NCBI GenBank assembly: GCA_001899005.1
Contig: MKUW01000021.1
Location: 1 to 64,000 of the forward strand
Direction of reading: 5' to 3'
DNA length: 64,000 nucleotides
Source: Chloroflexi bacterium 44-23
GTDB taxonomy: Bacteria; Chloroflexota; Anaerolineae; Anaerolineales; Anaerolineaceae
Position numbers and translations under genes: made by a program
Shown: one piece after another, positions 5,965 to 64,000 of the stretch
Layout: each line of letters begins with the position of its first letter
Numbering within the stretch: position 1 is the stretch's first letter
The notes under the pieces: model-generated
The model's database searches: none
Seen by the model: the letters and a program-made list of their open reading frames with translations, nothing else
Told to the model about the DNA's origin: nothing

Positions 5965-6141
5965 TTTACCCTATCTCCTAGTCCGTTATAGGCATAACTG
6001 AAGGTATCTGTGACTTTTGGGACTTCAAACAGCTTGTTGGTGAATTTGACAAAAAGCCCGCAAGTCTCGGAATAACACATTTTATCTGTATTTCCTTCGG
6101 GGTTAGGCATCGATCTCAGCAATTTGTTAGCTCAAGGATTC

Positions 6142-41429: not shown

Positions 41430-41458
41430 TTCATATCTCCTATTATTCACAAACCAAT

Positions 41459-41860
41459 TTACATTTCACTGACCAAGTGACAAACACAATTCTTACCATC
41501 TACATCATCTGTGGGAAATGTAAGTCCCAGAGCATGTAAATCACGAAGCTCAGCCTCGAGACGTTGCAGGACGATAATTCTTTCAGCAACCTCCTCCGTT
41601 TTTTGTTGGATTTGATTCAACAATGTACGACAAGGTGCTTCATGTTTATCCCTTAGTGCAAGTATTTCTCGGATATCATCCAAGGAGAGATCCAGGCGTC
41701 GTGCACCAGCAACCAGTCGTAATCGATTAATATCTGTTTGGTCGTTATCTCTGTAACCGTTAGGCTTACGTATTGGTGATGGCAAAACCCCCGATTCTTC
41801 GTAAAAACGAATTGTCTTGGTTGACACTCCTGTAGCTTTGGATAACTCTTGAATTTTCAA
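41459..41860 (-). CDS. merR: MerR-family metal-responsive regulator
   Basis: 133 residues. The N-terminal winged helix reads IQELSKATGVSTKTIRFYEESGVLP, followed by the dimer helix and three candidate metal cysteines: one in KHEAPCRTLL and two in NCVCHL at the C-terminus. This arrangement suits Hg(II)/Pb(II)/Cd(II) sensing, and merA directly downstream points to Hg(II). It is first in the merRA operon and sits behind a 19-base-spacer promoter, so it controls its own transcription. Confidence 0.88.
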   Translation of the reverse strand: MKIQELSKATGVSTKTIRFYEESGVLPSPIRKPNGYRDNDQTDINRLRLVAGARRLDLSLDDIREILALRDKHEAPCRTLLNQIQQKTEEVAERIIVLQRLEAELRDLHALGLTFPTDDVDGKNCVCHLVSEM

Positions 41861-46200: not shown

Positions 46201-46642
46201 ACTCTATACGTTGTGGCAAAGCGTGCGACGTGTATGGCGTTTGGGACAGACACAGCCGGTCAAAGCGATTTTCTCGGTTTACTCGTCAGCGATGGAAGCA
46301 ACAGCGCTGGCCTTGATGGGAAAAAAGATGAAAGCCGCGCAGCTCGTCTACGGGGATGAGGTCGGAGGTGCGATTGTTCCAGAAGAGGAAGGCGACTTTC
46401 TCACTCAGCTTGCTCGTGATGTGCTTGAGGGGGCAAAGCTCTCTGATTTACAGACCTTATTTGCTGATGACCTGCAAGTCAGCCACAATCCAATGGGCAG
46501 CCTGACGACCCCAAGCGCCGTGATTATTCCTGGTCCGAAAGTAATGACTTGGGATGATTGGGTAAGCCAGAAGACGGTGGTAGTTAGGCGGACTCGAAGA
46601 AAGGAGGAAGTACCGGAGGGACAGATGGGATTAGGGATTTAA
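43286..46642 (+). CDS. DUF6094-type methyltransferase fused to an SNF2-like helicase
   Basis: 1,118 residues with AAGGAG upstream. Residues ~1-200: class I SAM methyltransferase with LFDPCAGEGKA at 35-45 and the catalytic NPPY at 98-101, suggesting an N6-adenine target. The helicase part has Walker A AEMGTGKTT near 430, a DEVH box near 653 in LLIADEVHQFKS, and a C-terminal RecA lobe (VLVYVRQTGTRD, then DVLICNPRLVETGLDLVQF, then QSVRRVWRLGQ). A Cys-rich insertion (CACPGC) separates the motor lobes. Genes of this type are common on large conjugative plasmids and integrative elements. Roles in element maintenance or DNA modification are inferred. A terminator follows. Confidence 0.85.
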   Translation: MRPPAIERMGYYPTDDPIVEIICSYLKPPAEKGRLFDPCAGEGKAASSLGNTLNCETWGVELSPERAGKAQNVMDKVYQAPWQACVLSDESISWLYLNPPYEFDRFEGQKRLEWDFLKTTSSKLMRGGLLTYIIPQKILGMIEVARLLAGHYEAITVYRFPDGLYEKYKQVVVLAYKRKLYQLPTDKEVLSLQSLASVELEPIQSAIEPIYQLLPAPLRGANGKPVMFKRTDWEPEEVVEATKEAGVQKTNDWLDLIHPTRGLAQLSQPVMPLKKGHIAMLMASGMMGTVKLTDEEGKPMLIKGRVIKVVEKTEQPDAKETDTVVETYKDRFVTTVAVLKQDGIQVIQDVKGLSEFMKVHGEKIAAHVLETYKPIYNLDPTATEIEVLDNLGTLRKALPGQERAGLLPAQRHAAAALARSIRRNGVANCQAEMGTGKTTISTGVIELLDAYPAIVLCPPHLVPKWIREIEEVIPGAYAREIRRIGRNSDEAYDVNDVREFLDQYKAACDTAQKKGGSKPKWVAVVAHTSAKFGAGWQPAVITRKARDPLTGKIVDACACPGCGKVVMVEKDGFVVPVTDASELAEKRQFCHNRISGWELYAVGRAKLDANGDSVWGTRPCGTPLFEFNGARRHSISEYITKHAKGAFKLLIADEVHQFKSKSSDRGVAFHQLVTAVKWTLTLTGTFFGGKSTSIFWLLHRLNHGVRRDFAFHDEKRWARLYGVLETTRRRRRNEDADEDGVYTGNRRYRNQAKEQPGVSPAIVSRLLDTTIFLSLKDLNLALPSYKEEVVALDMLGDQGQQYHSMDSSLKQLAIQSSRYLSTWLQWTLARPNSAFRDEVVVVDEVDGGDGKTVRKVPLIELPAINPNGHKWLPKENWLADFCKVEKQQGRKVLVYVRQTGTRDIQDRVMMPLQANGLRVSILSGNVDPRKREEWIAKHVNTIDVLICNPRLVETGLDLVQFSTVVFFEIEYSLYTLWQSVRRVWRLGQTQPVKAIFSVYSSAMEATALALMGKKMKAAQLVYGDEVGGAIVPEEEGDFLTQLARDVLEGAKLSDLQTLFADDLQVSHNPMGSLTTPSAVIIPGPKVMTWDDWVSQKTVVVRRTRRKEEVPEGQMGLGI

Positions 46643-46645
46643 CAT

Positions 46646-46676
46646 ATTGGGGTTGTCAATTTTGGACAGCCCCAAT
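46646..46676 (+). terminator. Rho-independent terminator after the helicase gene
   Basis: ATTGGGGTTGTC (46646-46657) pairs with GACAGCCCCAAT (46665-46676) with one wobble and a 7-base loop, followed by TTGCTTTTTG. It closes the plus-strand module; the next gene is convergent. Confidence 0.8.
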
Positions 46677-46742
46677 TTGCTTTTTGTAAATTTGATTTGA
46701 ATTGAAATTTTAATAGCTCAAAAGCACTTGTCTACTGATTGC

Positions 46743-49700
46743 TTACTTAAATTGTTTATGATTTGAGCATTCAAAATACCTGGCTTTCTCAGCTGAATAA
46801 TTTGAAACAGCTTTGACGACATCCGATTTAGCTAAGAGAATCATTCCTTCGATGCTTGGCTCTTGATGAGCTTCGTTTGTGGATGGTATCAACTTTTCTC
46901 TCCAATACTTCATTACAATAAATGGATTTCCGTTTTGATCAACCAATGTAAAACCATGCTGAAAAGGCCCAGGAAACAAATTCTTAACAAGTTGAAGAAT
47001 TGGATGAGGAACAAGAATCACTATTTTGCCAAACATATCACGCGTAACACTAATTCCTACTAATGGGCCATGAAAAGGAACGCTGACATTTGAAGGATCA
47101 ATCTTTTTTTGCCAAGTTTCTATATTGCCATATCCTAAAGGCAAACCTTCATTACTATGCCAATCGGAGGCAAATTGTATTCCTGAATAATTACGGATTT
47201 CTCCAACCAGTGATTTTTCATAATCGTCTTCGTACTGAACTTCAGTTTCCGAATGAGCAAGAATCACCCAACCCTCATATTCACCTGCTGGCACATATTT
47301 TAATTCTTTTTCATTACACCCTTCTGGTTGTGATGAACAACGCGGAAGGTACCAAGGGCGGATAATACGGCTGAACATTTTTCGAACCGTTATGTCAACG
47401 TCTTGCAGCAAATTATCACCAACGATTTGCTCAACAGAGTAATTGAAATTACCCATTTTCGCGAATTCAGATCTTGCTGTCGTGCCTACTGTTTGAACCG
47501 CCCTTTCAGCCTCCTCATCAACCGGAAGCCATGCAGGGTTATAAAGTCCTCTATTATGCGGGTCAATTTCATGAAGAGTTCGCTGCATTTCCCTTTTCAA
47601 GTCATCGGAATTGACAAGAACATCTACGTATTTGGCAACCTGTTTTCCAAACTCCGGCCAAATTCGGTTTATTCTGGATATTCGTTCTTTGCCTATCCAT
47701 TCCTCAATGCTTGATTGCTTATTTTTTGGAATTTCAGGAAGTATAGGTAAAGCCGTGGGGCTTTGAATTTCATTTGGAATTTCAGCTCTGGTTAAAAGTC
47801 TTTTTGCCAATGAACGTAAACTAGAATAGGGGCTTGCCAATAATAAGATAAGATCCTCTTTTATTATTTGTGTTACTTCAAATGGATCTGGTTCATACGT
47901 AGCTACTAACTGTAGAAGTATTATTTGTGTTGAGATGGGGGTATTACTGGAAAGTGCAAACCTTAAAGCAGAAGCAAAAGATGATCTGTCGGTTGTAATA
48001 GATAAAGCTGCAGCTGCTACTGCCATTCTTTTTTCATGAAGAAAGCAACAATTGATACGAGAAAAAATAACGGAAACCAACCATTTTTCAGCATCATTCG
48101 AAATATAGTTATAAGGAATATCAATATCATCATGCGGCCCCGTATTGGGTAAGCGGTGACTTATGATATTACATGCTGCTTTCCATGATGAAAAAGCTTC
48201 ATCTACAAGACCTCCAGCGATGAGCAGTTCAATAAGGTGAGCAGTTACTCCGTTATCACCTCCACTAGCAACTCGTTCTGAAACCTCTATCGCGAGTGTC
48301 GACCAAGTTGTCTCTGGATCGAGTTCAAGAGCTTTATAGAAGTTGTTTATTGCTTTCTCGCCGGCAAAACTCCTCCACCCATCTCTGGATTTTGTATACA
48401 CATATGTATTCGCAATTGCAGCTAACCTACTTAAACCATGACGTTCTAAACCAATAGCAATATCGAGAAAGAACTGTTCAGCATTCCAGGATGGTAGATC
48501 CTGAGCAATTTGCCGGAGCACAGATTCAGCAGAACCTTCATCCCCCGCTTCTATCATTTCGATTAGACGCCAGCCAACCATATTCGAAAGACGCTGAGAA
48601 TTACCACGAACACCTCCAGAATCACGCCATACTCTTACACAATAAGTGATTTGTACCGGAGTAGCCATTTTAGGGAGTATCGGAAAAACTATTTTCTCGG
48701 AATTTTCATGAAGATCAGCTTTTAAAATAGCATCGGTTTTTTCTTCTCCTTTCTCATTTGTGGTCACTTTCTTTTCATAATGAGCATCTATCCCAAGTCG
48801 ATTTGCTGACTCAACTAACAAATAGGGCAATTCATCAGGGACATTAAATCCATCTCCATCTAAACAGCCCACAATTACATTCCAAAGAGTTCTTGCAAGA
48901 TCTACGTTATTATTCAAATCTTCACAGCACTTAAGAGTAGCATTTATATTACTTCTTGCTTCCGATCCAATCGCAAGCCATCCTGCGACAAGAAGAGCAG
49001 GATTGATTTGACTGAAAAGGGCTTCTAGTGCATATGGAATCGCATGGTCAAGCACTGCAAAATTCGGAAGTTTATCAATCCCATATTGTGATAAATAAGT
49101 TAAAGCTCCAGAGGGTTGAATTCTTGCAGCTTTATCTAGCCATTGATGAATCGCATGACTGGTTTCTCTGCCGTCTGTATGATTAATAACCTGTTCAACT
49201 ATCGGCTGAACATCGAATAAACATCTATGAACTTTGACTGGGTCAACCGATGCAAGTTTATCTAAAGGATCTAGCAACTCATAAACCGTTATGTCTTTTC
49301 TTTCCCCATAACTAAATAAGAAATGGCAGGCTTCTCGCCAGGCTTTCTCAGCAAGAATTTTCTCACCCGAAAATACTAAAAGCCGAACAAGTATAAGTTG
49401 ATCTATAGCATGAATATCATATACTTCTGAGCATCTTAGCTTTGGATTAAGGAGCTCTATTCCAAAAGTTGCAGATATTCGTCGTTTCTCCTCGGAATTA
49501 GCTGTTGAGATACAGAGTTCAAACAATTCATCGAGGGGTAAAGGACCATTTCGAATGCTTTGTAACCAAGTACTTGTCTTTACACTAATATCTTTAAGAG
49601 CACTTAATGCTAACTCCCAATGTTTGTCATCAAGAAATGAGAGCATTTTCCGGAAAGAGCGTCTAATAAGATCATGGAGTTCATAAAGATCACAAGCCCT

Positions 49701-52700
49701 TGGTTTCCCTTCAAAAACCTCAATATTTTGACTCAGATCAGCAAGGGCAGATACGATTTCATCCTGTGTTGATTTTGAACGATAAATAACTAAACAAAAT
49801 CTCAGCCATTTGTGGAACCAAGAATCAGGTTGAATGGCTATTTCGGATTGTGCCAAGGATGATTGATCACCTTTGGCATCTGAATATGATATAGCCGAAA
49901 TCCAATAAGCTAATGACTTGTTATCGAATTGAATTCTGTCTGAAATAACTTTGGTGGTTAATCCATTGAGATCAAGAACATCATCAGGAAATAGTTTTGG
50001 ATCTACACCTTTTTCTAAGCAAAATAGCCATTCATCTGGTGGGAGGCCATCCAAAATCGAGTTTTCAGCATAGGCCTTAGCATCAGCCTCGTTATTACTG
50101 CTCAAAGCCAGTACAAGGTAACAAAAAGCTCTCGCTAAACTCTTTGGTAATAAATTGACCACCTCGATTAGCGCGTCAGGGCCATATAATTGGAGGATTG
50201 TCCAATTAATATCTATTGGGTGTACCGGGGGTTCATTTGATGAATTTAACAAATCACAACATAACTTTATTGATAGTTCTCGTCCACTTAACCGAAATCT
50301 GCCGGTCAGGCGAGCAATATTGATTACATCATTACTACCGTCGGCATATGTAGTATCTTTTTTTTGTAACTCTTTATCGTGGGCTTTTCGGTACTCAATC
50401 CAAGGTGGAATAACGCCTTCATCATCACAAGTTTTGCAAAGTACTAATCCTGACCGTGCTGGGAAAGTGCAGCGATTGTTAGATAAAAGACGTTCCGATA
50501 ATAACTTTGCACCAAACAAAGCCGAAAAGGATTTCCCGTAATTTTCAGCAATGGGGTAATCATCTAATCTCCACTTATAAAAATGATAAGCAGCGCGTGA
50601 TAACTCTATTAGCCGGGTGAGATCTGTCCACAATTTCTGGGTTGCAGCTATCTCTGCTGCTAAAGCGAGATTAGCTTGTACAGCATCCGCAGGTTGCCCA
50701 TAAGCAATCGAATTAATCACAAAATCATCATTTATTCTTGCGATAACCTCTTCTTTCCTACCTACTACAACAAGTAGTTTTAATAGGGAACGATAAGCTC
50801 TTGTATCTGAATAGAACCCACGACTATCCAACCAATTAGCGACAGGAATGAGGATGGCAGCAATATTAGCTTCTGGATCCGATTCCAGCCTCTGCCTCAT
50901 AAATCGCTGGAAGCTTTCATGATAGAGCCTTACTCCGCCAAGAGTTATATCTTCCGTCAGAACTGGTGATAAATGAGTAAGAATCTTGCTGATGTAGTGG
51001 CCGATATCAGGTTTAATTTGTTTTATTTCTGACGCTGCTAATGGAAAGTCCACAAGAGACAATAATTCGCCAATCCAAATAACCCCCGTATCTCTTGCTA
51101 ATCCATTTATTAGCCACTGATAATACGCGTCTAAATTTTGATCAAGTGCCGGAACAGCTGATAAGTATTCAGGAACATCAGATATATCCTTAGTATTTTC
51201 ACTATCACGAATGGAGAAAACCATCCTAACTAGATAAGCAGCATAAAGAGGATTGCCATCGGCTTTCTTTTTTATGACTTCTTGAACACGTTCATAATCA
51301 CTATCCAACCCTAAAACCGATAATATCTCCCTCAGCTCCATGCGATCAACAAGCTGACGCATTGAACCATCATTCCATTTCTGGACGATATATTCAGTGC
51401 CTAATGAAAGATATGAAGCTAAATGTGTGCCGGGTTGAGAACCCACAATAATAACAACACCAGGAGGGATTTGGAGAGCAGCCAATTCCTGAATTATCTC
51501 GGCAGCAAGTCCGGGCCGCACGGAACCGGGGAGGCGATCAGCATGATCTAACCCATCAACAATGATAGCTATTTTACTCCCCACATTTTGTCGATTTCTA
51601 TGAGTCAGTAATTTCTCTAATTCATGAGGTCCGGCCGAAAACCGTGGTACTACATCAGTTGAAAGCGATGGGTCTTTTTCAAGGAGTTGTGCAATAATAC
51701 TTCCGAAAATAGTGTCGATAGAATTTCTTTGAATTAAGTCCGGATCAAAAGCATCGATAAAACAATAATGTAACGCGGTAAGCCATCCATTTTCTGTTAA
51801 GTACGAATTTAGTTCATGTAAAAGCCATGATTTTCCCATTCCTGGCGAACCGGTAATCGCTATGCGCGAGTTTTGCTCTATAATCCTTGAGATTTCAATT
51901 AGGTGGTCATTCTGCGGAACAAGTCGATTCTCTGATATAGGGAAGTTTTCTTCTACCTTTCCATAGTCCACCCGTAAAGCCAAAGTTTCAATCACAGATT
52001 GTTGGTCTAAAGTATCACCATGAGCGCGAGCGATACTTGCAGCTTTAATTAAATGGGCAGCTGCATCAAATACATCACGGTTATGGTTTGGCCATAAACC
52101 TACCCCAATTTTTTCGTGTAGGACATTAAGGAGTATGTTATCCAAAGGACCTGGGATCCGTAGATCACCAGATGCTCTAGGGCAATTTGTCTCTATAGTG
52201 AACCGTTCACAAAACGCAAGAAAAACATCCCGTCCAAAAACATCTACATGAGGCCAAAGCGGTACTGTACTCTCGGGCCAAATCTTTTCCGGGATTAGTT
52301 TGTATCGCTCTGTTGCAAAACACGGAAGAAGAGGAGCTATTAATGGTGTTGTGAACAAATAAGGCGCCAATTCCGCTTCCGGAGAGTCATATGAAGTGAA
52401 GAGGCAATATGAATTGGCTGGATTTGGATCTTCGTAAAAACTACGGATAGCTTTATCAATACGAAATGATATTCGGTTTGTTGTGAAGTCGGATAGTAAT
52501 AGAGGGCGGTAATCGCTCTCATGTGATTTTATCTGAATTCGTGATCGTTCCTTGCCTGATAATTCGAGGTCATCAAAGCAGTCTTCAGCGATTACCTTCC
52601 GATCAACGGTAACTTTCACCCCCTCAAATTTAGGTAGCAAAATAGTTGCGAGAGCACATGCAGTTATGCAATCTTGATGGTTATACCCGAAGTGTGCTGC

Positions 52701-52715
52701 TGATAGTGAAGGCAT
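46743..52715 (-). CDS. Avs-like STAND NTPase with N-terminal Cap4/DUF4297-type nuclease
   Basis: 1,990 residues. Residues ~8-65 match the Cap4/DUF4297 endonuclease pattern: GYNHQDCITACALATILL, acidic D48-D49, then IQIK with Q61 and K63. The STAND NTPase has Walker A GSPGMGKS at 289-296 and Walker B IAIIVDGLDHAD at 382-393. The remaining ~1,500 residues are helical and repeat-like, as in sensor domains of Avs proteins, which recognise phage proteins and switch on the nuclease to stop infection. A CKTC pair (LVLCKTCDDEG) near residue 755 may bind zinc. It is the last gene of the minus-strand defence cluster, 233 bases after the 723-residue gene. The target and the exact Avs class cannot be told from sequence alone. 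Confidence 0.75.
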   Translation of the reverse strand: MPSLSAAHFGYNHQDCITACALATILLPKFEGVKVTVDRKVIAEDCFDDLELSGKERSRIQIKSHESDYRPLLLSDFTTNRISFRIDKAIRSFYEDPNPANSYCLFTSYDSPEAELAPYLFTTPLIAPLLPCFATERYKLIPEKIWPESTVPLWPHVDVFGRDVFLAFCERFTIETNCPRASGDLRIPGPLDNILLNVLHEKIGVGLWPNHNRDVFDAAAHLIKAASIARAHGDTLDQQSVIETLALRVDYGKVEENFPISENRLVPQNDHLIEISRIIEQNSRIAITGSPGMGKSWLLHELNSYLTENGWLTALHYCFIDAFDPDLIQRNSIDTIFGSIIAQLLEKDPSLSTDVVPRFSAGPHELEKLLTHRNRQNVGSKIAIIVDGLDHADRLPGSVRPGLAAEIIQELAALQIPPGVVIIVGSQPGTHLASYLSLGTEYIVQKWNDGSMRQLVDRMELREILSVLGLDSDYERVQEVIKKKADGNPLYAAYLVRMVFSIRDSENTKDISDVPEYLSAVPALDQNLDAYYQWLINGLARDTGVIWIGELLSLVDFPLAASEIKQIKPDIGHYISKILTHLSPVLTEDITLGGVRLYHESFQRFMRQRLESDPEANIAAILIPVANWLDSRGFYSDTRAYRSLLKLLVVVGRKEEVIARINDDFVINSIAYGQPADAVQANLALAAEIAATQKLWTDLTRLIELSRAAYHFYKWRLDDYPIAENYGKSFSALFGAKLLSERLLSNNRCTFPARSGLVLCKTCDDEGVIPPWIEYRKAHDKELQKKDTTYADGSNDVINIARLTGRFRLSGRELSIKLCCDLLNSSNEPPVHPIDINWTILQLYGPDALIEVVNLLPKSLARAFCYLVLALSSNNEADAKAYAENSILDGLPPDEWLFCLEKGVDPKLFPDDVLDLNGLTTKVISDRIQFDNKSLAYWISAISYSDAKGDQSSLAQSEIAIQPDSWFHKWLRFCLVIYRSKSTQDEIVSALADLSQNIEVFEGKPRACDLYELHDLIRRSFRKMLSFLDDKHWELALSALKDISVKTSTWLQSIRNGPLPLDELFELCISTANSEEKRRISATFGIELLNPKLRCSEVYDIHAIDQLILVRLLVFSGEKILAEKAWREACHFLFSYGERKDITVYELLDPLDKLASVDPVKVHRCLFDVQPIVEQVINHTDGRETSHAIHQWLDKAARIQPSGALTYLSQYGIDKLPNFAVLDHAIPYALEALFSQINPALLVAGWLAIGSEARSNINATLKCCEDLNNNVDLARTLWNVIVGCLDGDGFNVPDELPYLLVESANRLGIDAHYEKKVTTNEKGEEKTDAILKADLHENSEKIVFPILPKMATPVQITYCVRVWRDSGGVRGNSQRLSNMVGWRLIEMIEAGDEGSAESVLRQIAQDLPSWNAEQFFLDIAIGLERHGLSRLAAIANTYVYTKSRDGWRSFAGEKAINNFYKALELDPETTWSTLAIEVSERVASGGDNGVTAHLIELLIAGGLVDEAFSSWKAACNIISHRLPNTGPHDDIDIPYNYISNDAEKWLVSVIFSRINCCFLHEKRMAVAAAALSITTDRSSFASALRFALSSNTPISTQIILLQLVATYEPDPFEVTQIIKEDLILLLASPYSSLRSLAKRLLTRAEIPNEIQSPTALPILPEIPKNKQSSIEEWIGKERISRINRIWPEFGKQVAKYVDVLVNSDDLKREMQRTLHEIDPHNRGLYNPAWLPVDEEAERAVQTVGTTARSEFAKMGNFNYSVEQIVGDNLLQDVDITVRKMFSRIIRPWYLPRCSSQPEGCNEKELKYVPAGEYEGWVILAHSETEVQYEDDYEKSLVGEIRNYSGIQFASDWHSNEGLPLGYGNIETWQKKIDPSNVSVPFHGPLVGISVTRDMFGKIVILVPHPILQLVKNLFPGPFQHGFTLVDQNGNPFIVMKYWREKLIPSTNEAHQEPSIEGMILLAKSDVVKAVSNYSAEKARYFECSNHKQFK

Positions 52716-52812
52716 ATTATTTGGCGGTTTTTCTGAAATAGCTATAAGCCGATGGAGAATGGGGAAAACTAATGGGTAATGCGGGGCTTTGACTCAATTC
52801 ACTCTGGTGATT

Positions 52813-52834
52813 CTCAAAAAACCTTTTTTTTGAG
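52813..52834 (-). terminator. A/T-rich hairpin between the two defence genes
   Basis: CTCAAAAAA and TTTTTTGAG form a stem within the 233-base gap between the 723-residue gene and the STAND gene. On the minus strand it could end transcription or attenuate it. The rest of the gap shows nothing coding. Confidence 0.4.
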
Positions 52835-52948
52835 CATTATCCAAAACAAACAACTCTAGATTTCTATCAGGCATTATCGCATTACAGTCCTTTTTGAGTT
52901 ATAGCTCTGAGTTTGAAAGTCCATAAACCCATGGTAATCACAATAAGT

Positions 52949-55120
52949 CTATTCGATCGTAGCTTTTTCAATAGCTGCATCAATAATTCGGAACCAATCT
53001 TCTTCGTCAAGAATTACTAATGGATAACCAAATTGTCCAGAAACAAACTGAAAATCTTCTCTCACTTCATCATTGATTGTGTTGGGGATTGACACCCCAA
53101 TAATATCTAGATCTGCGCCTTGAATTGTTGCTAAATATGCAGAGTGACAATACTGTGTATAAAGTCCCTTGATTGAGGGTACCGACCTTCCAAGACCGCG
53201 AACTTTTGATCTCTCTCTGCTTTTTAGGTGGATCCCTATCCGTTTTTCTTCTCCAGTGTTTATCCATACATCTGGATATCGAATATCAGCTATCTCATGG
53301 CCATGATGAACGCCGTCAAACTCTTCATCAACAGCATAACCGAACAATCTGGAAAGACATAGATCATTACCAGCTTTTATCCTGGCCGTGGTTATTACTT
53401 CTCGCATGCAACCACTGCAAATTTCATTACTGGAGTGACGATTGTTTCGGGCGCACTTTTCTTTTATGCGCCAAAGTATCTGACCATATTGATTTTTTCT
53501 TTCATCAGAAATATTTCGTTGGTGAATATGTGCCCTAGTTTGCCACATTTGGAATTCGGATAAATGATATTCGTTGATTGCCACTCTATTTCTTGGGAGC
53601 AATCTTAAAACATGTCCAATGATTATAAAACTACCATCGAATTGTTGATTCTCCAATACGCCTAAAAACCTGTGGATTGCTTTTAGAAGCTGTACCCCGG
53701 GAAGAATCCTGATATCTGCCGAAAATGTCAGCTCAATATTGGCTCCACAGTCGCAGGGGAACAACTCATTATCTTGATATTGATGCTCATTAGGATGGGT
53801 GGAGCATTGAAAAATGAGCTGGTGATCTACAACAATAGGGGTTAGAGGAGAATTACAAACTGAACAGCGAGCGATATTATCCCCGCAATTTTCACAGTGA
53901 ATATTTAGTGCTGGAACAATGTCAAGGAAATGATATTGTTCAACCAGGGTCCTAACGAAAACAGGATCGAATTGAAATTCTGTAGTACGTGACCTTCGAG
54001 CTCCAATTATCGCTTTTATCAATTCCTCGAAATAATACCGTTGTTGAATTCTTAGTTTTTTTCTGCCAAGGGTTACAGGCACATGTCGATAGTACGCTAT
54101 AAACCCATTCGGATTAATATCAGCCTCCCTATTTAGTTCCTGTTCTGTTTTCTGGATTAAGTTGATAGAGAGAGCTAATAGGGAATCTTTTCGTAAGTGT
54201 GTTGGCGTCCATATACGGCCGTATTGACGTGATATTCCCATTCCACCTTGGACTAAATCGGGATGACTTGAATAAAAACCAAAAGTTTGCTGGCGGGATG
54301 GATCACCGGAAAGAGATCGATAGGATCTTAGTTCTCCTAAAGAAGGATCTGAAATTGTGAGAGACTGGGCATCAAAATTACCGATTGAATCATCGTCAAT
54401 ACGTGAAAAGGAGGCCGTCCTTGGATTTGCTCCTTCTGCTAAACGATCTAGCATTTCCTCGGAAAGATATGGAAGCTGCCAACTTATGGACAACAATGTT
54501 CTACAATAATAGAGAATTGGCTTAACTGCTTGGAAATCCGCACATAATAAAAGGGCATGCCTAAACTCTCTGCTATACCAGATAATTGCTTTTTCTAGAC
54601 TGTAAATAACATTTACTTCTCCAAAGTCTTCCGACTCCGGATCAGAAACCACATATTCAATTTTCTTTTCATAAACGAGAGGAATCTCTTGAAATGGTAT
54701 TTGTGTAACAACCTCTCTCGCAGGAGTAATGATGTAAACTGACCTTACTGTTCGATCCAAACCAAATTGAACCGCTGCCTCTTGCATCTGTTCTGCAAGT
54801 TTAGTAGTCGTCTCAAGAAGGTGCTGAAAATCTGGCCAGGAGTTAACCGACACCAGATAAAGTGTTGGGCTTGAAGATAATGGATAGTTCGCTTTTGTAT
54901 CTTCAAGAGCATTGTGTCCATTTTCCGTAGATTGTAGAACCTCCACTAATTGAATTTTTGAGAAATCATCAAGCCTACGCCTTAAGTCGGTTTCAGCCTG
55001 GATTTTTAACATTTCTCGAATTTGGTCGCCAGGAATATTCCGGATGACTAATTCAATGATTTCTCGTTTTGGGACAGGAGTTCCACCAATGGGCATATTT
55101 TTCCCTTGCTTTGCTTCCAT
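52949..55120 (-). CDS. Uncharacterised zinc-ribbon protein with possible PD-x-x-K nuclease end
   Basis: 723 residues; the ATG at codon 9 (55096) has AGGGA seven bases upstream and may be the true start. I know no family for the whole protein. Residues ~85-210 look like an alpha/beta domain (TLYLVSVNSWPDF ... HALLLCADF). A zinc ribbon has C409, C412, C419 and C422, with further Cys at 439, 456 and 458, and CSGC at 568-571. The C-terminus has PD at 616-617 followed by IHLK (K633), a spacing that fits a PD-(D/E)xK nuclease with His at the variable position. It follows brxL by 69 bases, on the same strand. A role in defence is inferred from position and the nuclease-like end. Confidence 0.6.
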   Translation of the reverse strand: MEAKQGKNMPIGGTPVPKREIIELVIRNIPGDQIREMLKIQAETDLRRRLDDFSKIQLVEVLQSTENGHNALEDTKANYPLSSSPTLYLVSVNSWPDFQHLLETTTKLAEQMQEAAVQFGLDRTVRSVYIITPAREVVTQIPFQEIPLVYEKKIEYVVSDPESEDFGEVNVIYSLEKAIIWYSREFRHALLLCADFQAVKPILYYCRTLLSISWQLPYLSEEMLDRLAEGANPRTASFSRIDDDSIGNFDAQSLTISDPSLGELRSYRSLSGDPSRQQTFGFYSSHPDLVQGGMGISRQYGRIWTPTHLRKDSLLALSINLIQKTEQELNREADINPNGFIAYYRHVPVTLGRKKLRIQQRYYFEELIKAIIGARRSRTTEFQFDPVFVRTLVEQYHFLDIVPALNIHCENCGDNIARCSVCNSPLTPIVVDHQLIFQCSTHPNEHQYQDNELFPCDCGANIELTFSADIRILPGVQLLKAIHRFLGVLENQQFDGSFIIIGHVLRLLPRNRVAINEYHLSEFQMWQTRAHIHQRNISDERKNQYGQILWRIKEKCARNNRHSSNEICSGCMREVITTARIKAGNDLCLSRLFGYAVDEEFDGVHHGHEIADIRYPDVWINTGEEKRIGIHLKSRERSKVRGLGRSVPSIKGLYTQYCHSAYLATIQGADLDIIGVSIPNTINDEVREDFQFVSGQFGYPLVILDEEDWFRIIDAAIEKATIE

Positions 55121-55188
55121 TAGCCATTCATAAGTATTTATTTGAGATGACCAACAGATTCATTTTCTCTTTCTCAGATATCTGTGAA

Positions 55189-57267
55189 TTAAACCTTGTA
55201 TATATCCACCTTCGTTTCCAAGCATTTCCTCAATGATAGATCATTGGCGCCGATTTCATTCCAGCTTTGGGGTTTCTGGTAGAAATCCAATCCTCGACCA
55301 ATTTTTACCACCCAGCCGTTATCCAGCCGAATTTCACGATCATGAATGTTTGGGTTAAAGTCAAAGTCGAAAACAATATCAACTTCGAGCAGGCTTTGTT
55401 TCAGGTCGCCTAGTTTCTGTTCAATCTCCAACTTCTGAGTTTCATCGTCATACCCAGTGATCAATTCGATGCGTTTGATGCCCGACAATTTGATAATAAC
55501 CTCACAAAAGCGAACAAGGTTCTGAATTTGGTGAGGCATACGAATGTAGGGGTCTTCAATCTCGATACTCTTTGAACCTGTAAAGTAGGGGCCAAAAATA
55601 GTCTCATAGCTATAGCCAGTATCACCATAAAAAATTGTGTAATGCTTTTCGCTTAGTTCTGGTTCTTTGGGTGAAACGATTTCTGGCTGGACCATTACTG
55701 CCACTTCTGAAGGCAGCTCGACCACAGTTCTAGTTTGAGCTTTCCTCGTTTTTGCTTCCGGATTCTCTTGTGCTCCTGAATTCAATGAACGCCGGAATGG
55801 ATGCTGTGTAGCAGTTGCGTTACGCGATTCCGGACAAAAAACCACGACTTCTTTTCCATCTGGGGCAAAATAGGACAGGTTAATCCGTGCAAACTCATCA
55901 TCAGGTTTGCGTTTGTTCATTTGTTCTTTTACACGCCGCCTAGCTTCAACTGCATAAGCTACATATTCGTCAAATTCTGAATCGCTGGGTGGACCATCGG
56001 GATGCAGTATTTTTAGAAAAGCACATACAGTCTTTTTGATGCCCTTTTCATCGCGGCCTTCGACATTCTGTCCCAATCGAATTCGCTTATTGACTTCCTC
56101 GTACCGATTGGTGTGAGAGAATTGATGATGAAATGCTTCCGCCAAATAATCCGTAATGAAACCATAATTTCCCGTCAGAAAATCACTGCTATTCTTCGGC
56201 ATTTCCCAACCGGGTAAATAGGCGGCAAACCGATCCATTATTGCCAGATCAAACTCTCTTGGCATGGGAATAAAAAGATCATGTTCAGTCGAATTGACTA
56301 ATTGTTCAATGGAATGATCGATATTCCCGTTGAATGCCAGGCTCGCGTCGGCAATCACTTCGGCTCCACGCGAGAAACGACCGTTTGCCATGAAATCTTT
56401 CATGATCTGGATGGTTGTGGAGTCTTTGATTTGGATGCCGGCGACCTCATCAAAGGCAACGGTATCCCAGAAACCAACCAGGCCGGTTCTTTTCCGGGCA
56501 TTGTTGTAGAACAATATTGGGGTTGTAGCCTGTCCGCCACTGACCAGGGTTGAATAGGGAGAAAATTCGCTAAAGAAGTACGATTTTCCAGTTCCCCTGG
56601 GACCTAGCTCGATAAAATTGTAGTTAGGTTCCACCAAACATGCCAATCGGAGCATAAAGTGGAATTTCAACCGCGTTGAGAGCTTCGTTGGCTCTAATCC
56701 GACAGAGCGTAAAACAATATCCAACCATTCATCTCTTGAAAACTTACTCCGACCTGCTGCATACCCATCGAAATCAAACCGGCTCAATTGAATTGGTCGC
56801 AAATCTTCAACATAGAACGTGTAATCGTCATCTTCAATTTCGTTGTATCCAATGGTAATTTCAGCCCAAATACCACCTTCTAACAGACGATCATTATCGC
56901 GATAAAATTTTTCATTGATAGCCACCCGCTGGGAATTAAAGTTTTCAAGGGCAGCCCAATGGCGCTTTTCTTTCTCAACATAGTTGACATGGACTTTATC
57001 AATAAAGCGGTGTTTTCCTTTGGTTGCGACCTTAGACTGAGCAGCGTTCGCTTCGTCTGCGCGCACATAGTTATCCTGAAGGGTTGCCAGGACAGCTTCC
57101 AATCCCTCCTGGATTTCTTTGGGATCTTCACTGGCGCAATACCGTGCCAATAGAAATTCCAATACAAACGTTGGGACATTCGTGCCCTTTTTGATACGAT
57201 GTAATAAATCTTTGCGGACAGCTTTACCTTCAAAAACCTCAAGAAGTTTCTCGTCTAATATATCCAT
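55189..57267 (-). CDS. brxL: BREX Lon-like ATPase/protease BrxL
   Basis: 692 residues, close to the usual BrxL length. AAA+ core: Walker A GPRGTGKS near residue 224, Walker B-type FDEVAG near 270, then the conserved SRGAEVIADASLAFNGN and PREFDLAIMDRFAAYLPGWEMPK. An acidic/low-complexity linker near 490-530 precedes the C-terminal Lon-like domain. BrxL is an AAA+ factor of type 1 BREX phage defence. It starts two bases after the pglZ stop, so the two are coupled. Confidence 0.9.
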   Translation of the reverse strand: MDILDEKLLEVFEGKAVRKDLLHRIKKGTNVPTFVLEFLLARYCASEDPKEIQEGLEAVLATLQDNYVRADEANAAQSKVATKGKHRFIDKVHVNYVEKEKRHWAALENFNSQRVAINEKFYRDNDRLLEGGIWAEITIGYNEIEDDDYTFYVEDLRPIQLSRFDFDGYAAGRSKFSRDEWLDIVLRSVGLEPTKLSTRLKFHFMLRLACLVEPNYNFIELGPRGTGKSYFFSEFSPYSTLVSGGQATTPILFYNNARKRTGLVGFWDTVAFDEVAGIQIKDSTTIQIMKDFMANGRFSRGAEVIADASLAFNGNIDHSIEQLVNSTEHDLFIPMPREFDLAIMDRFAAYLPGWEMPKNSSDFLTGNYGFITDYLAEAFHHQFSHTNRYEEVNKRIRLGQNVEGRDEKGIKKTVCAFLKILHPDGPPSDSEFDEYVAYAVEARRRVKEQMNKRKPDDEFARINLSYFAPDGKEVVVFCPESRNATATQHPFRRSLNSGAQENPEAKTRKAQTRTVVELPSEVAVMVQPEIVSPKEPELSEKHYTIFYGDTGYSYETIFGPYFTGSKSIEIEDPYIRMPHQIQNLVRFCEVIIKLSGIKRIELITGYDDETQKLEIEQKLGDLKQSLLEVDIVFDFDFNPNIHDREIRLDNGWVVKIGRGLDFYQKPQSWNEIGANDLSLRKCLETKVDIYKV

Positions 57268-57269
57268 AG

Positions 57270-59789
57270 TTACACCGTATAGTCCGTTTCAAGTTCTAAT
57301 GATTTACCCAGGGCGGTTTGTGTGATCGGATCAAGAGCTTTCACAATGAATTTACCCTCAAAATCCATATCCATTTTTAGTGTAATTGGAATGGTGTCTC
57401 CTGGTTTTAGCGTAATGATTCTGGTTGCCGGGTTTACCGGACCGCCAAGTTTTGCTTCGCCAACGACATGTCCTTTTACATCGTAAGCTTCAATTAGCAG
57501 CTCCGTTTCCTGGGCAAAGAGATCCGAAGCTCCGGCTTCAACCTCTATGACCGGTAATCGGGTGGTGATCTTTTTGGAGCCTCGCTTGTAATTTAACATC
57601 ACTGATAGTTTGCTACCAATTCCAGTCTCTGCGGCGCGAATCTTCACTGCGATGACGGGCACAATCGCTTCCTGAAGCGAAAGCCCGCCGTGGAAATACC
57701 ATTGCCCAGCGCGATATGCCACCATTGCACGCGGAACCGCTACCTGGTTAAAGTCTCCTTTGATGCCAAACATTTCAGAGGGTAGAACCAGGTTGGATGC
57801 ATCGCCAATCCCATCGCCGAGAAGTGTTCTCTCATGAACATTGATCCATTTCCCGGATGGTTTCACGCACACATCGCCTGGTTCAATGGCTGTATTCAGG
57901 AAAAAGCCATGATCGGTGGCAATGATGACATCCTGAAATCCAAGGTCACGTAATTTATAGATAGCCGACCGGATTTTCTGGAAGGTACGACTGATTAATC
58001 CTGGAGCCGCTTCTGGATTGGCTTCAAAATCATTATCCATATCATTACTGCGAATGACCAGAAGTTCAACGGTGCTCTCAATCTTGGGATGATCACGGAC
58101 AAACCGGACCAATTCCATTTCTGCAAAACGCTGCCCATACTTTTTACGCAGCACATCCATGCGTTGAGCGACGGTGGCTAATGGCTGGTCACCGAATACG
58201 ACCAACAACTGATTATCCTTATTCGTAATTATTAGGTTTTGACCGGCCCCGGGTAACAGTGTCGCCATCCCAACGGGTGTGACTGTAGGCATCTGAGCGC
58301 AAGCCATCTGAACATCAATTTGCCCAGCTTCGTTCAAGTGCTTTGCTAACTCAACACCGAGTTCATAACGCATGGCATCGATCAACAAATAAGCCACGCG
58401 CCGGCCGCTTTCGAGCAATTTCGGTGCGACCAATTTATCAAACACATCAGCATTCGATAAGCGCCCCGAGATTGGCCAGCCGGATTTTTCGATATGTCGT
58501 ACGAAAACTCCATGGATCTTGTCCATTAATTTATGGTACATTGAGCGCGATTGATTGATCACCTCTATTGATGCGCCACCTGAATCGAGGAGATCTCCAG
58601 CAGCTTGTTCAAATTCACGCTGGATGCGATCTACTTCGCGGATATTGCTGGTGTAAAAGTCCAACAAGGTATCCAGTGTACGGGTGTGCTCGGATAGCTG
58701 GCGGTCGGTGTCTTCGCATGCCTGGGCTAGGCTGGCAGCCGAGTGGAGCAGCGCCCACTGGGCCTGGTTTTCACCCCGACTGACCCAGACCGATTGCTCA
58801 TGTCGATTTAAGATACTGCGCAGTTTATCGACATTATCCCTTTTAAGGGCATCTACTGCTTGGTTGAAACAGGCACGTTCTTCAAACGGGAAAGTATCGC
58901 GAATGCCAAAATCTTCATTTTTCTCGCATATTGACGGCAGATTTAATTCTTTTTCTATTCCCTCAGCCCGCTCAATATATAACGCTTGAGTGCGCCGGTC
59001 ATTCCGTAACCGGTCACACAGATCTTCCACGAGGTGGAGCGCCTCTTGGGGGGCGCAAGGCACGTTCGTTAAAGCAGGCGGAAGATCGCCGGGTAGATCA
59101 AAGTCGAATTCACTGAACAACAAGAAACGCCACAGCTCATCTGCAATCGCGTTCCACGTTTTGATTTTGGTTTTCAGGTTAAGGCCCAGTGTGCTTTGGA
59201 ATAATCCTGTTGCTTCAGATACCCAGGTTATTTGGTTTTTAAGGGCTTCTTTTTGCGTTTCGGAAGGTGCAAGCAATGCAAACAAAATATCGCGAGCTGA
59301 TTCAACTTTGAGTATCGCTTGCAGGTTTGGCCAGCCTGCTCCTCCGCCAACGGCGTCAATGACCGCAAAACCGGGATTAGGATTGTCCTTAAAAATCCGG
59401 CGGATTTCGGTAGCATAATCCGCGCGTGCTTTCAAGCAAAGACTGAGGAATTCATCCCCATCTCCCTCTGGAAAAACAGAGCCGCAAGCGCCGTAAATGG
59501 CAAACGGATCGCGTTGTTTTTCCTCATCCGTGATCGGCGGCTTGGCGGGAACATACACCAGGATGCCCTCAAGGGATGGGTTGGGCTGGCCAAACTCATT
59601 GAGTGCTTCCAGTGCAGCAAAGCGGCTGGTGATGCTGCTTTCGGATGCATCAATGACACGCAGTTTTTCAGCGTTCAGCTCCAAACACAGCTCGTGGTAG
59701 CGCTGGTCGGGGTCATACACAACCAACACCCCATTTTGTTTGAGGCGTGGCAAGAATATTTTTTTTTGGATGAAATCTTTAATCGTCAT
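57270..59789 (-). CDS. pglZ: BREX alkaline-phosphatase-superfamily protein PglZ
   Basis: 839 residues from the ATG at 59789 (the frame is open to 59816). The PglZ domain has VAYLLIDAMRYELGVELAKHL near residue 470 (metal-binding Asp), and VIIATDHGFFLN further on, the two hallmark metal motifs. The C-terminus is a beta-rich domain. PglZ is essential for BREX. It overlaps the end of pglX by 11 bases and runs into brxL without a gap, which is the type 1 BREX order. Confidence 0.9.
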   Translation of the reverse strand: MTIKDFIQKKIFLPRLKQNGVLVVYDPDQRYHELCLELNAEKLRVIDASESSITSRFAALEALNEFGQPNPSLEGILVYVPAKPPITDEEKQRDPFAIYGACGSVFPEGDGDEFLSLCLKARADYATEIRRIFKDNPNPGFAVIDAVGGGAGWPNLQAILKVESARDILFALLAPSETQKEALKNQITWVSEATGLFQSTLGLNLKTKIKTWNAIADELWRFLLFSEFDFDLPGDLPPALTNVPCAPQEALHLVEDLCDRLRNDRRTQALYIERAEGIEKELNLPSICEKNEDFGIRDTFPFEERACFNQAVDALKRDNVDKLRSILNRHEQSVWVSRGENQAQWALLHSAASLAQACEDTDRQLSEHTRTLDTLLDFYTSNIREVDRIQREFEQAAGDLLDSGGASIEVINQSRSMYHKLMDKIHGVFVRHIEKSGWPISGRLSNADVFDKLVAPKLLESGRRVAYLLIDAMRYELGVELAKHLNEAGQIDVQMACAQMPTVTPVGMATLLPGAGQNLIITNKDNQLLVVFGDQPLATVAQRMDVLRKKYGQRFAEMELVRFVRDHPKIESTVELLVIRSNDMDNDFEANPEAAPGLISRTFQKIRSAIYKLRDLGFQDVIIATDHGFFLNTAIEPGDVCVKPSGKWINVHERTLLGDGIGDASNLVLPSEMFGIKGDFNQVAVPRAMVAYRAGQWYFHGGLSLQEAIVPVIAVKIRAAETGIGSKLSVMLNYKRGSKKITTRLPVIEVEAGASDLFAQETELLIEAYDVKGHVVGEAKLGGPVNPATRIITLKPGDTIPITLKMDMDFEGKFIVKALDPITQTALGKSLELETDYTV

Positions 59790-62700
59790 TGAACCAACCT
59801 TCTGTCTCTTCATCAATTGCTGGTTTTTTGGCTTTTTTCTTTTTAACGGATGCCGGCGGCTCTACGTACAATTCTTCTAAATCGTGCGCAATCGCTATCG
59901 ATTTATCGGTCTTACACTTTTCACGCACACGCTCTGGCCAGATGCTGTAAGCCAGATGCGCCCAGTCGTATTCGCCAGATTCAAGTTTTGACCAGGTTTC
60001 CCGCAGACGTTTCTGCCAGGGTTTGTGTTGGAATAGCTTCCACAACGGGGCGGCGGTAATTTCCACACCATCGTTCAAATTCGGTTTCCAGAACTTCGCC
60101 ACACGCAGCAATTCTTCACGGAAATCTTTCAATTCGCGCTCGAAATCCGTCAGGCGCTCCAGTTCTTTTTCATCGGCAGCTGAGCGGCCTTTCTTCAGTC
60201 GCAGGCGGGCAGCTTCCTCGGATACTTGCTTGAGCTTCACATCGACAAAGTCATTCACGCAGGTATAGAGTGTCTGATCGTTCAGACGGTGGTAATACAA
60301 CCATAGGGTATATGAACAGGATGGTGTGGAAAGCGGCCAGTAGATTGGTGCAGCGCGGCGGCTCTTAGAATAGCGTTTGAGGTGATCGGCAAAAAACAGA
60401 GCCGGTTTATTATAATATTCCCGTATAGTGTGCACACCCAAGATCTGGCAGGTTTCATCTTCGATGGTTTCGACTCGCTCGCCCCAGATAATATGTAATA
60501 CATTACGTATACGCCCTTCAATATCTTCAAAATGTCCTTCATCATCTACCAGAATCCCCGACCAGGAAATCCGCAGAGGGTAATAGGAAGGCATATTCTG
60601 CGAAGCAGCAGGAAAATCTTGGACGTCATGCAGCATTCCTGGCGGGTAAGCAGGCAACGGGGCAAAAGGATCAGATAAATCGGAAGTAGATATTTGATTA
60701 AAGGCATGTCTTATGTCCCAACGCCCAAGTAGGCATCCAATTATCCACATAAATAAATCAATTTTCAATTCACTTTGGGAACGAGTGCGGAAAACATGTT
60801 TCTTCATTAAAAATGAAGTGGTAGCTAATTCTTTAAATTGGTCCTTATTAATATTTAATGCAACTTGAACGCAATTATCAATTTCATCTATATTTTTTAG
60901 AATCTTTTCTTCGGTAATATCTAAAAACGAAATATCATCCGAAGATATTAATGGTCTAAGAAAATATGGGGACAGCTCGCAATATTGTTCAAGTAATAGC
61001 ATCGACCTAACTGCTTCTTTGGTTAAAGGTCCAATTAGATTTTCTGTCAAATAGAGAAGGTTTAACCCATAAGGTAAATTTGCAACAGCACGATTCTCGT
61101 ATGCTCGATGGCGTCCAAACGCTTTCAGTAAAACATCACTCCAACTTGAGACCAATAACCCTAAAAGTGCGTAAATATTGTTCTGATCTGCTAAGAAAAT
61201 TGACATTCCCTTTTCTGAAAAAATACATTGAGAAGGTAGAATCTTGGGGCTAAACGATAGATTTACCCTTGGATAAGTCAAACCAGGTCGAAACCACTTT
61301 GATATACTTTGAATAATTTGTCCATCCGTACCATATAAACCTATTTGAAAACTACGGGGTTCAGCACCATTGTTTGACCAGTTGAATACCAAATTAGTCG
61401 GCGAAATAAGAGGTTGGTACTCTCCGCCTTTTTCATAGGAAAACCAAATTTTATTAAGAGATTCAGGTGAAACCTCATTGCGAAGTCGTAGAAATCTAAA
61501 ATCATCAAAAGTATGATTTCCAGCAACAACTTCAGCCAAGTCTGGCTCGAGCCTTTCTTGTTCTTTCCATAAATGAAGAAGATTTGAATTCATGTGTAGA
61601 CACAAAGGCCACCCATATATATTCTCAAAAAAATCCAAATTATGTAGAGTAAATTGTTTTTGTTGACACGCAACGAGTAAAGAAGAATCCTTTTGAATTA
61701 TATTGAACAGATCTAGATAATTAGTAGTGGGGGTACCGTTGTTGACAAATACTGATAAAGCTGTTTCGACCGCCGCATCATCAAGAACACCGGATCCAAG
61801 TTCCACAATAATTAAGAGAGCATTTTTGGTAATTATATTTTTCCGGAGTTCACGAAGTTGTTTTGAATATAAATAAAGGAGAGATGTTATTGCGCCAACC
61901 ATTCCGTTTTCATCAAGTTTTGATTGCATTCTTTTTATAAAAGCAGCGTAAATATCTTTCCAATCATCTGCATATTGCTTTTTTAATAATGATATTGAAG
62001 AGCTTGACGGTTTACCAAAAGGTGGATTCATTAACACAATATCAAACATTTTTCTGGACAAATTGATAAATTTAAATCCTTGTGATACATCTCCAACAAA
62101 CAAACGCCGCCTATATCCCTCACCGTTTTCAGTACGTTCTGCATATTCTCCTAGTGCTACCAGTACAAGTCCTTCGGCTCGATAAAAGAAATCCTGTTCT
62201 TCGCTAGATACCACCTGCACATATTTCTCTTTCGGGGGTTCGGTCAAGCCATAGTCCAACACTCGGAAAAGTGGGGATTTTTCCTCCGATTCTTTTCGAG
62301 CTATAGAAATTGCATCCCGCAGTGTTTCCTCAATTTTCAACAAACTGCCGGCTTCCCCCGCCAGTTCCATCTCCTGCCATACCGCGCGCACTAGTTTAGT
62401 CAAGGCCTCCGCCATTTGTGGTGTAGCACGTACTTTCTTATCAGCAGGCACATACCAGGCTTTGCGCATCAGTGCTTCCAACCTTTCGCCCTGCAAGGTA
62501 CCCAAAAATTCCTCCAGCATCTGCCGGTCGCCAGGCATGGGTTCGGCACACACCACGTTGGATTTTCGGATCTGAGGGCGTTCGCTGGGGCACAGCCTCT
62601 GTGTTTGCCAACTCTTCTGGGCACGAAGCCATAGGCTCAGTCCTGCAATCTGTACCGCGCGTGGGTCAATATCTACACCGTGAACGTTGCGCTCGATAAT

Positions 62701-64000
62701 TAAACGAGATATATCACGTAAATAGGCATCTTTGTCTGAATACGTTTTGTGTAAGGGATCGAGATCCGCCAGGCGCTGTAAGGCGTCTTCTCCCAGACGC
62801 TCTTCCAGCTCCCAAGCTTCGGCGTAAATCTGCTCAAAGAGATCGAAGGCATACAGCCCAAAGTGCATCGAGCCGCAGGCCGGGTCGAGCATCTTGATCT
62901 CGCGTGGGTCCTTCAACGGCCGGTGGGGGATGAACTCGACTTCGAGGTTCCAGCGCTCACAAGTCGCCCGGTACAAATCCAGAATGGCTTTCGCGTTATC
63001 GCCCTCGGGACCTTCACCAAAATGGTGATACCTGCGCTGTTCAAAGAACAGGCAGCAGCGCAATTCATCGAAAGTTCCTTCCCATTTCCCGCTTTCGTGA
63101 TACTGTTTCAATTTCTTGTTAGCGAGGTCGCCGCATTCGATCCCCCATTGTTTCCTGGCATAATCGTACCCGTCGGCAGTCAACCCATAGAGGAAAATGA
63201 TGTTCAGGTCAGTAATCTGATCGTTGGGGGGCAGCCACATTTCATGGGCAAGGTCAGGGTCGGTTTCATGCAGCTGCTCCGGCAGGAACGGCTTGGGCGC
63301 AGTCTGCCCCTCAGCCAGGAAAAAAGCGTGCTTTCGCCGTACCAGGTAGCGGCAGCTATCTATTAGCGCCGTCTCGCCTTTAGTCATCTCGTACCAGATG
63401 CGCCCCAGGGTGTTATCGGTCAGAAATTCCACCACGTAGCGTGGCGTAAAAAACTGGTTGCGTACCGCCAGCTCACGGCTGTTGCGTGGTGCCTGCGAAG
63501 CATCACGCATGGCTTTACGCTCCTCTTTGCTATTGAAATACTGGTAAATCCAGCCAATCGTCTCATCCTCGGTCCATAACGGATCGATCTCTGGATCGTT
63601 AATCAGTTCCAATAGTTTAAGCAAAGCAGTTTCGCGAGGAAAGAGCCGTCCCTGCGGGCTAAATCGGTCAAACAGAACCGGCAGATCGACGGCAAATTCA
63701 TCCATCAAACTGAAGAGGTACATGCGATAGGCTTCACCCATCTCACCCAGGGCGCTGCCCGCCAGGCGGGTATAAAGTTGAAAACCTTTCGATTGGTATC
63801 CGTTGGCAATCGATTCTAAAACCAACCCGCGTGCTTCTGACATGCGAAATGCACACAGCCGGTTGAGGATGGTAAACGCCTGTTCACGCACTATGCGATC
63901 CAAAGTTTCCCTCACCCCTGCCGCTCTCCCAGAGGGCAAGGGGTTCACACCCGCCAGATAGTAATCCAGGGTTTCGCGTAATATCCGCGCCGTCTCACGT
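59779..64000 (-). CDS. pglX: BREX adenine-specific methyltransferase PglX, 5' end outside the window
   Basis: The frame stays open to the window edge upstream of the GTG at 63948, so the real start is beyond 64000; at least 1,406 codons are present. Numbering from 63948: RNQFFTPRYVVEFLTDNTLG near 165, SAM motif LDPACGSMHFG at 354-364, NVHGVDIDPRAVQIA near 421, catalytic NPPFG at 641-645. Residues ~645-1085 form the specificity region and are encoded by AT-rich DNA unlike the flanks. The C-terminus is Lys-rich. PglX methylates an adenine in a non-palindromic site to mark self DNA. brxA, brxB and brxC are expected to the right of the window. Confidence 0.92.
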   Translation of the reverse strand, partial: RETARILRETLDYYLAGVNPLPSGRAAGVRETLDRIVREQAFTILNRLCAFRMSEARGLVLESIANGYQSKGFQLYTRLAGSALGEMGEAYRMYLFSLMDEFAVDLPVLFDRFSPQGRLFPRETALLKLLELINDPEIDPLWTEDETIGWIYQYFNSKEERKAMRDASQAPRNSRELAVRNQFFTPRYVVEFLTDNTLGRIWYEMTKGETALIDSCRYLVRRKHAFFLAEGQTAPKPFLPEQLHETDPDLAHEMWLPPNDQITDLNIIFLYGLTADGYDYARKQWGIECGDLANKKLKQYHESGKWEGTFDELRCCLFFEQRRYHHFGEGPEGDNAKAILDLYRATCERWNLEVEFIPHRPLKDPREIKMLDPACGSMHFGLYAFDLFEQIYAEAWELEERLGEDALQRLADLDPLHKTYSDKDAYLRDISRLIIERNVHGVDIDPRAVQIAGLSLWLRAQKSWQTQRLCPSERPQIRKSNVVCAEPMPGDRQMLEEFLGTLQGERLEALMRKAWYVPADKKVRATPQMAEALTKLVRAVWQEMELAGEAGSLLKIEETLRDAISIARKESEEKSPLFRVLDYGLTEPPKEKYVQVVSSEEQDFFYRAEGLVLVALGEYAERTENGEGYRRRLFVGDVSQGFKFINLSRKMFDIVLMNPPFGKPSSSSISLLKKQYADDWKDIYAAFIKRMQSKLDENGMVGAITSLLYLYSKQLRELRKNIITKNALLIIVELGSGVLDDAAVETALSVFVNNGTPTTNYLDLFNIIQKDSSLLVACQQKQFTLHNLDFFENIYGWPLCLHMNSNLLHLWKEQERLEPDLAEVVAGNHTFDDFRFLRLRNEVSPESLNKIWFSYEKGGEYQPLISPTNLVFNWSNNGAEPRSFQIGLYGTDGQIIQSISKWFRPGLTYPRVNLSFSPKILPSQCIFSEKGMSIFLADQNNIYALLGLLVSSWSDVLLKAFGRHRAYENRAVANLPYGLNLLYLTENLIGPLTKEAVRSMLLLEQYCELSPYFLRPLISSDDISFLDITEEKILKNIDEIDNCVQVALNINKDQFKELATTSFLMKKHVFRTRSQSELKIDLFMWIIGCLLGRWDIRHAFNQISTSDLSDPFAPLPAYPPGMLHDVQDFPAASQNMPSYYPLRISWSGILVDDEGHFEDIEGRIRNVLHIIWGERVETIEDETCQILGVHTIREYYNKPALFFADHLKRYSKSRRAAPIYWPLSTPSCSYTLWLYYHRLNDQTLYTCVNDFVDVKLKQVSEEAARLRLKKGRSAADEKELERLTDFERELKDFREELLRVAKFWKPNLNDGVEITAAPLWKLFQHKPWQKRLRETWSKLESGEYDWAHLAYSIWPERVREKCKTDKSIAIAHDLEELYVEPPASVKKKKAKKPAIDEETEGWFNDD
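63906..63946. repeat. REP-like dispersed palindromic repeat within pglX
   Basis: CCCTCACCCCTGCCGCTCTC followed by CCAGAGGGCAAGGGG is an imperfect inverted repeat of a type widely dispersed, as I recall, between genes in many environmental bacteria. Here it is read in frame as NPLPSGRAAGVRE in pglX. A family search would be needed to confirm it. Confidence 0.5.

Follow-up and report, generated by a model that had tools for sequence, protein, structure and literature searches.

Type 1 BREX systems combine methylation of a 6-bp asymmetric site with restriction of unmethylated phage, and their core genes usually lie in the order brxA, brxB, brxC, pglX, pglZ, brxL. About a third of the Type 1 taxa with BrxL carry an HKD-nuclease variant of this protein, and auxiliary or backup nucleases beside BREX, PD-(D/E)XK types included, were catalogued in 2026 (PMC12839542), so the concept of a backup nuclease next to BREX is already known. 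Among the AVAST systems (Avs1-Avs5), the nucleases of Avs1-4, once phage packaging proteins have been recognised, cut the DNA of both phage and host (PMC12931631). We analysed a stretch of 64,000 nt (the window) from contig MKUW01000021.1 (C21) of Chloroflexi bacterium 44-23, which carries a BREX locus (L002) on a mobile element and in which an earlier note had proposed that the two genes behind brxL form a two-gene module. We consider it probable that the locus is instead a Type 1 BREX operon to whose tail two independent defences of one gene each have been added, a putative nuclease gene that we call P2 and an Avs-like STAND receptor gene; P2 would be a lineage-linked addition to the BREX tail, and the STAND gene a later cargo. 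While backup nucleases beside BREX have been published, the P2 family, an outlying STAND clade and the direct view of a cargo slot are new.

The gene for the BREX Type 1 adenine methyltransferase, pglX (59779..63999 on the reverse strand; PADLOC PglX E 0, NCBIfam BREX_1_MTaseX 4e-198), is open at the window end, with its 5' end just past the edge. It overlaps pglZ (57270..59816, reverse strand; PADLOC PglZ E 0, Pfam PF08665), which is followed after 2 bp by brxL (55189..57267, reverse strand; PADLOC BrxL 6e-283, Pfam BrxL_N, BrxL_ATPase and MIT_C), whose C-terminal MIT_C/PLD-like (HKD-type) domain places it with the HKD-type variant of PMC12839542. The genes brxC, brxB and brxA lie directly upstream on the contig, just outside the window, and with all six core genes found in their usual order, the Type 1 BREX operon is complete. 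It differs from other Type 1 operons by two tail genes on the same strand, neither of them a core BREX gene: P2 (52949..55120, 723 codons), 68 bp behind brxL, and the STAND gene (46743..52715, 1,990 codons; Pfam NPHP3_N 2e-10, AAA_16 and NACHT), which follows after another 233 bp. A gene for a DUF6094 methyltransferase joined to an SNF2-type helicase (43286..46642; Pfam DUF6094 6e-29, Helicase_C), here called SNF2/MTase, converges on the cluster from the forward strand. The open reading frame coordinates, strands, overlaps and both gaps given in the earlier note were reproduced by our check of the reading frames. Because its relatives begin at an aligned methionine, P2 likely starts eight codons later, at 55096, which makes the protein 715 aa long and the gap to brxL 92 bp. 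At the other end of the operon, a 169-aa gene overlapping brxA (L002 5127-5636), without a Pfam or PADLOC family match, possibly has an accessory or regulatory role in BREX. Further upstream of brxA (L002 8147-16559; contig C21, 72147-80559) are two tyrosine integrase genes and a gene for a 1,953-aa DruE-like (Druantia) helicase, which make the region an island with at least one more defence-like system.

P2 and the STAND gene both have a GC content of 40.1% (GC3 31.4 and 29.3), compared with 43.7% for brxL, 48.8% for pglZ, mostly 51-54% for the ends of pglX and 51.0% for SNF2/MTase. The two genes are thus more AT-rich than the flanks of pglX, as had been noted, and this had been taken to suggest separate acquisition at the tail of the operon. 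The centre of pglX (60616-62014) is lower still, at about 35% GC; a low GC content therefore does not by itself mark acquisition, and we rejected it as proof. This central part is without a DNA match in relatives whose sequence on either side is 78-91% identical, and is probably a swapped target-recognition region that would alter the BREX methylation site. At the level of sequence comparison, empty sites in relatives are the stronger evidence for acquisition, and on this ground separate acquisition at the BREX tail is supported: four relatives show the exact site of the STAND gene in empty form, and behind more distant brxL genes P2 is either missing or replaced.

The gene order pglX-pglZ-brxL-P2 is kept in five other Anaerolineae BREX loci (L025-L029, from Levilinea, an Anaerolineae MAG, Leptolinea and Flexilinea), where P2 lies directly behind brxL at a near-identical short gap and encodes a protein 90-97% identical to that of the window. 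The STAND gene is absent from the locus in L025-L028. In blastn alignments with L025, L026 and L028, DNA homology stops 8 bp past P2 (52941) and resumes at 46641, a single base inside the 3' end of SNF2/MTase; the breaks thus fall at the 3' ends of the two flanking genes, and a 6,299-bp stretch (46642..52940) occupies the place of 69 bp. The 69-bp empty-site sequence is identical across L025-L028 and includes a strong predicted hairpin (-17.7 kcal/mol, z -5.6) with a T run, which fits a transcript that ends after P2 in those loci. The convergent SNF2/MTase gene is common to L025-L030 and bounds the cargo slot on its far side. Between P2 and this gene, Flexilinea flocculi (L029) has a HerA-like ATPase gene alone (12240-14387), while Longilinea arvoryzae (L030) has an Avs3a-like STAND gene directly behind P2 (12312-18797; PADLOC E 3e-223) and, beside this receptor and ahead of the same convergent gene, a gene of 253 aa. 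We consider it likely, as part of the preferred reading, that the STAND gene of the window was dropped into this slot later than P2 joined the operon. Empty sites and alternative occupants of one slot illustrate how single-gene defences are exchanged at a BREX tail.

Searches of Pfam, NCBIfam and PADLOC placed the P2 protein in no family. It contains 11 conserved cysteines, ten of them invariant across nine aligned sequences, in two clusters (C409-C458 and C556-C588), and its predicted model has a C-terminal restriction-endonuclease-like domain at about residues 535-723. The PD-(D/E)XK fold consists of an alpha/beta core with D and (D/E/Q)xK at the ends of adjacent strands. In the P2 model, the strand-strand-helix-strand topology of restriction endonucleases is recovered (beta613-619, beta625-631, alpha648-667, beta673-677), and D612 and H631-x-K633 are at the expected positions, with histidine where aspartate, glutamate or glutamine is usual. 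The best structural alignments of this domain, with FokI, MspJI, N.BspD6I, AspBHI, EcoT38I and Shedu, extend over about 130 residues at modest Z scores of 5.1-6.2 (<8); a Foldseek search with the model returned nothing below E 0.1, and sequence searches of solved structures gave chance-level matches only. With Z scores of this size and the unusual histidine, nuclease activity is something we infer for P2, and we read the protein, from its model, as an auxiliary restriction nuclease with zinc-binding cysteine clusters and a restriction-fold domain that, next to PglZ and the HKD-type BrxL, would most likely cut the DNA of invaders. As a putative PD-(D/E)XK-type nuclease adjoining the core operon, it resembles the BREX-adjacent backup nucleases (GmrSD/BrxU, Shedu and PARIS-like; PMC12839542), yet it differs from them in falling outside the profile families, in the cysteine clusters that precede the nuclease domain and in the HxK motif. 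With P2, the set of auxiliary nucleases found next to BREX would gain a protein family that is undescribed and testable.

The HxK in place of (D/E/Q)xK, the extensive cysteine clusters and the weak structure scores would also fit a P2 that is not a nuclease, and is instead a DNA- or protein-binding regulator or an antitoxin-like partner with a degenerate restriction-endonuclease fold. We consider this unlikely: even though the histidine is replaced by alanine in the most distant relative, that sequence keeps the aspartate and the lysine, and D612, H631 and K633 are invariant in all other aligned relatives, which speaks for an active site.

P2 is present in at least 12 other genomes. One genome scan gave eleven relatives, all in Anaerolineae or other Chloroflexi; the scan used two short peptide patterns, and the whole-genome searches covered one phylum (Chloroflexota) and at most 1,999 genomes, with repeats between searches. 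Virus-borne or plasmid-borne P2 was rejected, as no copy was found in viral contigs or plasmids. Two copies have interrupted reading frames, one in L035 (10004-12115), which is split into two ORFs and apparently decayed, and one in G686 with a single in-frame stop. A distant P2-like protein (22-26% identity in the C-terminal part) in L018 (9907-12009) adjoins homologues of the MADS genes mad7 and mad8.

How closely P2 is tied to BREX can be judged from these genomes. Its position directly behind brxL in six loci, the window included, and its company elsewhere, which is mostly methylation-based (a methyltransferase/helicase operon in L081, on a contig that also has BREX; a type I-like restriction-modification and helicase set in L033; MADS mad7/mad8 for a distant relative), would suit a P2 that serves BREX, or methylation-guided systems at large, as a functional subunit needed for restriction by the host operon, with the STAND gene as unrelated cargo. 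Against this stand the genomes in which one gene occurs without the other. A brxL match was found in 41 of 400 genomes of the order; five of these have P2 directly behind it, and most of the 41 have no P2 nearby. In G497, where brxL is about 80% identical, P2 lies about 14 kb past it, on the far side of DruE-like, DpdE-like and methyltransferase genes, and in G655 (L082; brxL 73% identical) the tail gene is a different one that weakly matches HEAT_CxxC_PDDEXK, another nuclease-like family. P2 also occurs alone, without BREX, in Tad-type mobile elements of three genomes (G120, G588 and G600). Its sequence history is not linked to that of brxL either: DNA identity between the window and L025 is 87.3% for pglZ, 91.8% for brxL and 97.7% for P2, compared with 89.0, 95.4 and 89.7% for L029, and these unlike values indicate that P2 has been exchanged independently of its neighbours. 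An obligate subunit is therefore improbable, and P2 as an add-on that may or may not depend on BREX remains the preferred reading. A bolder, rather improbable proposal is that P2 represents a new autonomous defence family whose members join a variable N-terminal part to zinc-ribbon-like cysteine clusters and a restriction-fold nuclease, might plug in behind different methylation-guided systems (BREX, methyltransferase/helicase operons, type I restriction-modification and MADS) as a shared second cutting activity, and would also work alone on mobile elements.

The 1,990-aa product of the STAND gene has a Cap4-like nuclease motif at about residues 1-65, a NACHT/STAND NTPase at about 280-600 and a long C-terminal region that is a putative sensor. 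The NTPase motifs GSPGMGKSW, IIVDGLDH, GSQPG and GNPLY are conserved in five relatives and, together with the NPHP3_N match, identify it as a STAND NTPase; the N-terminal motif GYxxQD / DxFDDL / QxK is invariant or nearly so in five relatives. The Cap4 family (DUF4297, PF14130) has no match in the window protein and a weak one (E 0.53) in the relative L101. The model of the N-terminus (pLDDT 52) is too poor for structure search, and its best match among solved structures, anti-bacteriophage protein A (8zue), is at chance level (E 0.37). With an N-terminal nuclease-like motif, a central STAND NTPase and a long C-terminal part, the protein is laid out like AVAST proteins, especially Avs3, but differs from them in sequence, with only weak Avs1b similarity over the NTPase (PADLOC E 1.5e-5, residues 384-703 only; NCBIfam 17 bits against a cut-off of 1500). 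None of the Avs1-Avs5 profiles of PADLOC and NCBIfam matched over most of the protein, and Avs3, Avs4 and Avs5 gave no match at all. Membership in Avs3 was rejected for want of a curated match; likeness to the Avs3a-like protein of Longilinea is confined to the NTPase (residues 280-667), and hhalign found no match of the N-terminus of the window protein to that protein. In the reading that we favour, the gene probably encodes an Avs-like sensor that bears a Cap4-like nuclease motif and falls outside the known Avs families. By analogy with Avs proteins, it should be an abortive sensor, in which the C-terminal part would sense a phage component, the NTPase would oligomerise and the N-terminal Cap4-like nuclease would be released. 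Relatives occur in Pseudanabaena, Moraxella, Pseudoalteromonas, G028 and G658, and one distant relative with a different N-terminus lies in a viral contig.

The earlier note proposed the module as a second line that may act when BREX is defeated; in it, P2 could modify, sense or regulate and the STAND protein execute. The shared strand, the 233-bp gap and the similar GC and GC3 speak for it, and in Longilinea, too, P2 precedes a giant gene of the nuclease-STAND kind, from the Avs3 family. Between P2 and the STAND gene of the window no terminator was recognised, so co-transcription is possible in this strain; the number of sites from promoter scans did not exceed that in shuffled sequence. The comparison of genomes does not bear the proposal out. 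P2 was never found beside this STAND family in the other genomes that carry it, and of the six BREX loci with P2 behind brxL, only the window has this STAND family. Conversely, P2 was not found near five full or long STAND-family relatives whose flanks were examined; the relatives in Pseudanabaena, Moraxella, Pseudoalteromonas and G028 lack P2 nearby. A single slot in one family of mobile elements holds P2 alone in G120, G588 and G600 and a STAND homologue alone in G658, where the flanking genes are 60-81% identical to those of the P2-bearing Tad-type elements. In addition, the Longilinea STAND protein is related over the NTPase only, and P2 ends at the strong hairpin in four loci. A second pair of P2 with this STAND family, whose lack elsewhere the note itself had named as telling against a module, did not appear in anything searched. 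The module is thus very improbable and was rejected on co-occurrence. Since P2 and the STAND gene are found apart, and in one slot in different genomes, their pairing in the window is, as far as the sequence search reaches, a one-off juxtaposition. Either gene alone may still act as a second line when BREX is defeated. Neighbours in a defence island need not cooperate, and a pair that seemed convincing in one genome dissolved on comparison.

Other parts of the window contain further genes of interest. Adjoining the defence cargo are a mercuric reductase-like gene (39762-41860; HMA and pyridine nucleotide-disulphide oxidoreductase domains) and a MerR regulator. Near the start of the window, a gene for a 4,566-aa YD-repeat (RHS-like) protein (6767-20467) is followed by three shorter RHS-like ORFs (82-6122) with differing C-terminal ends.
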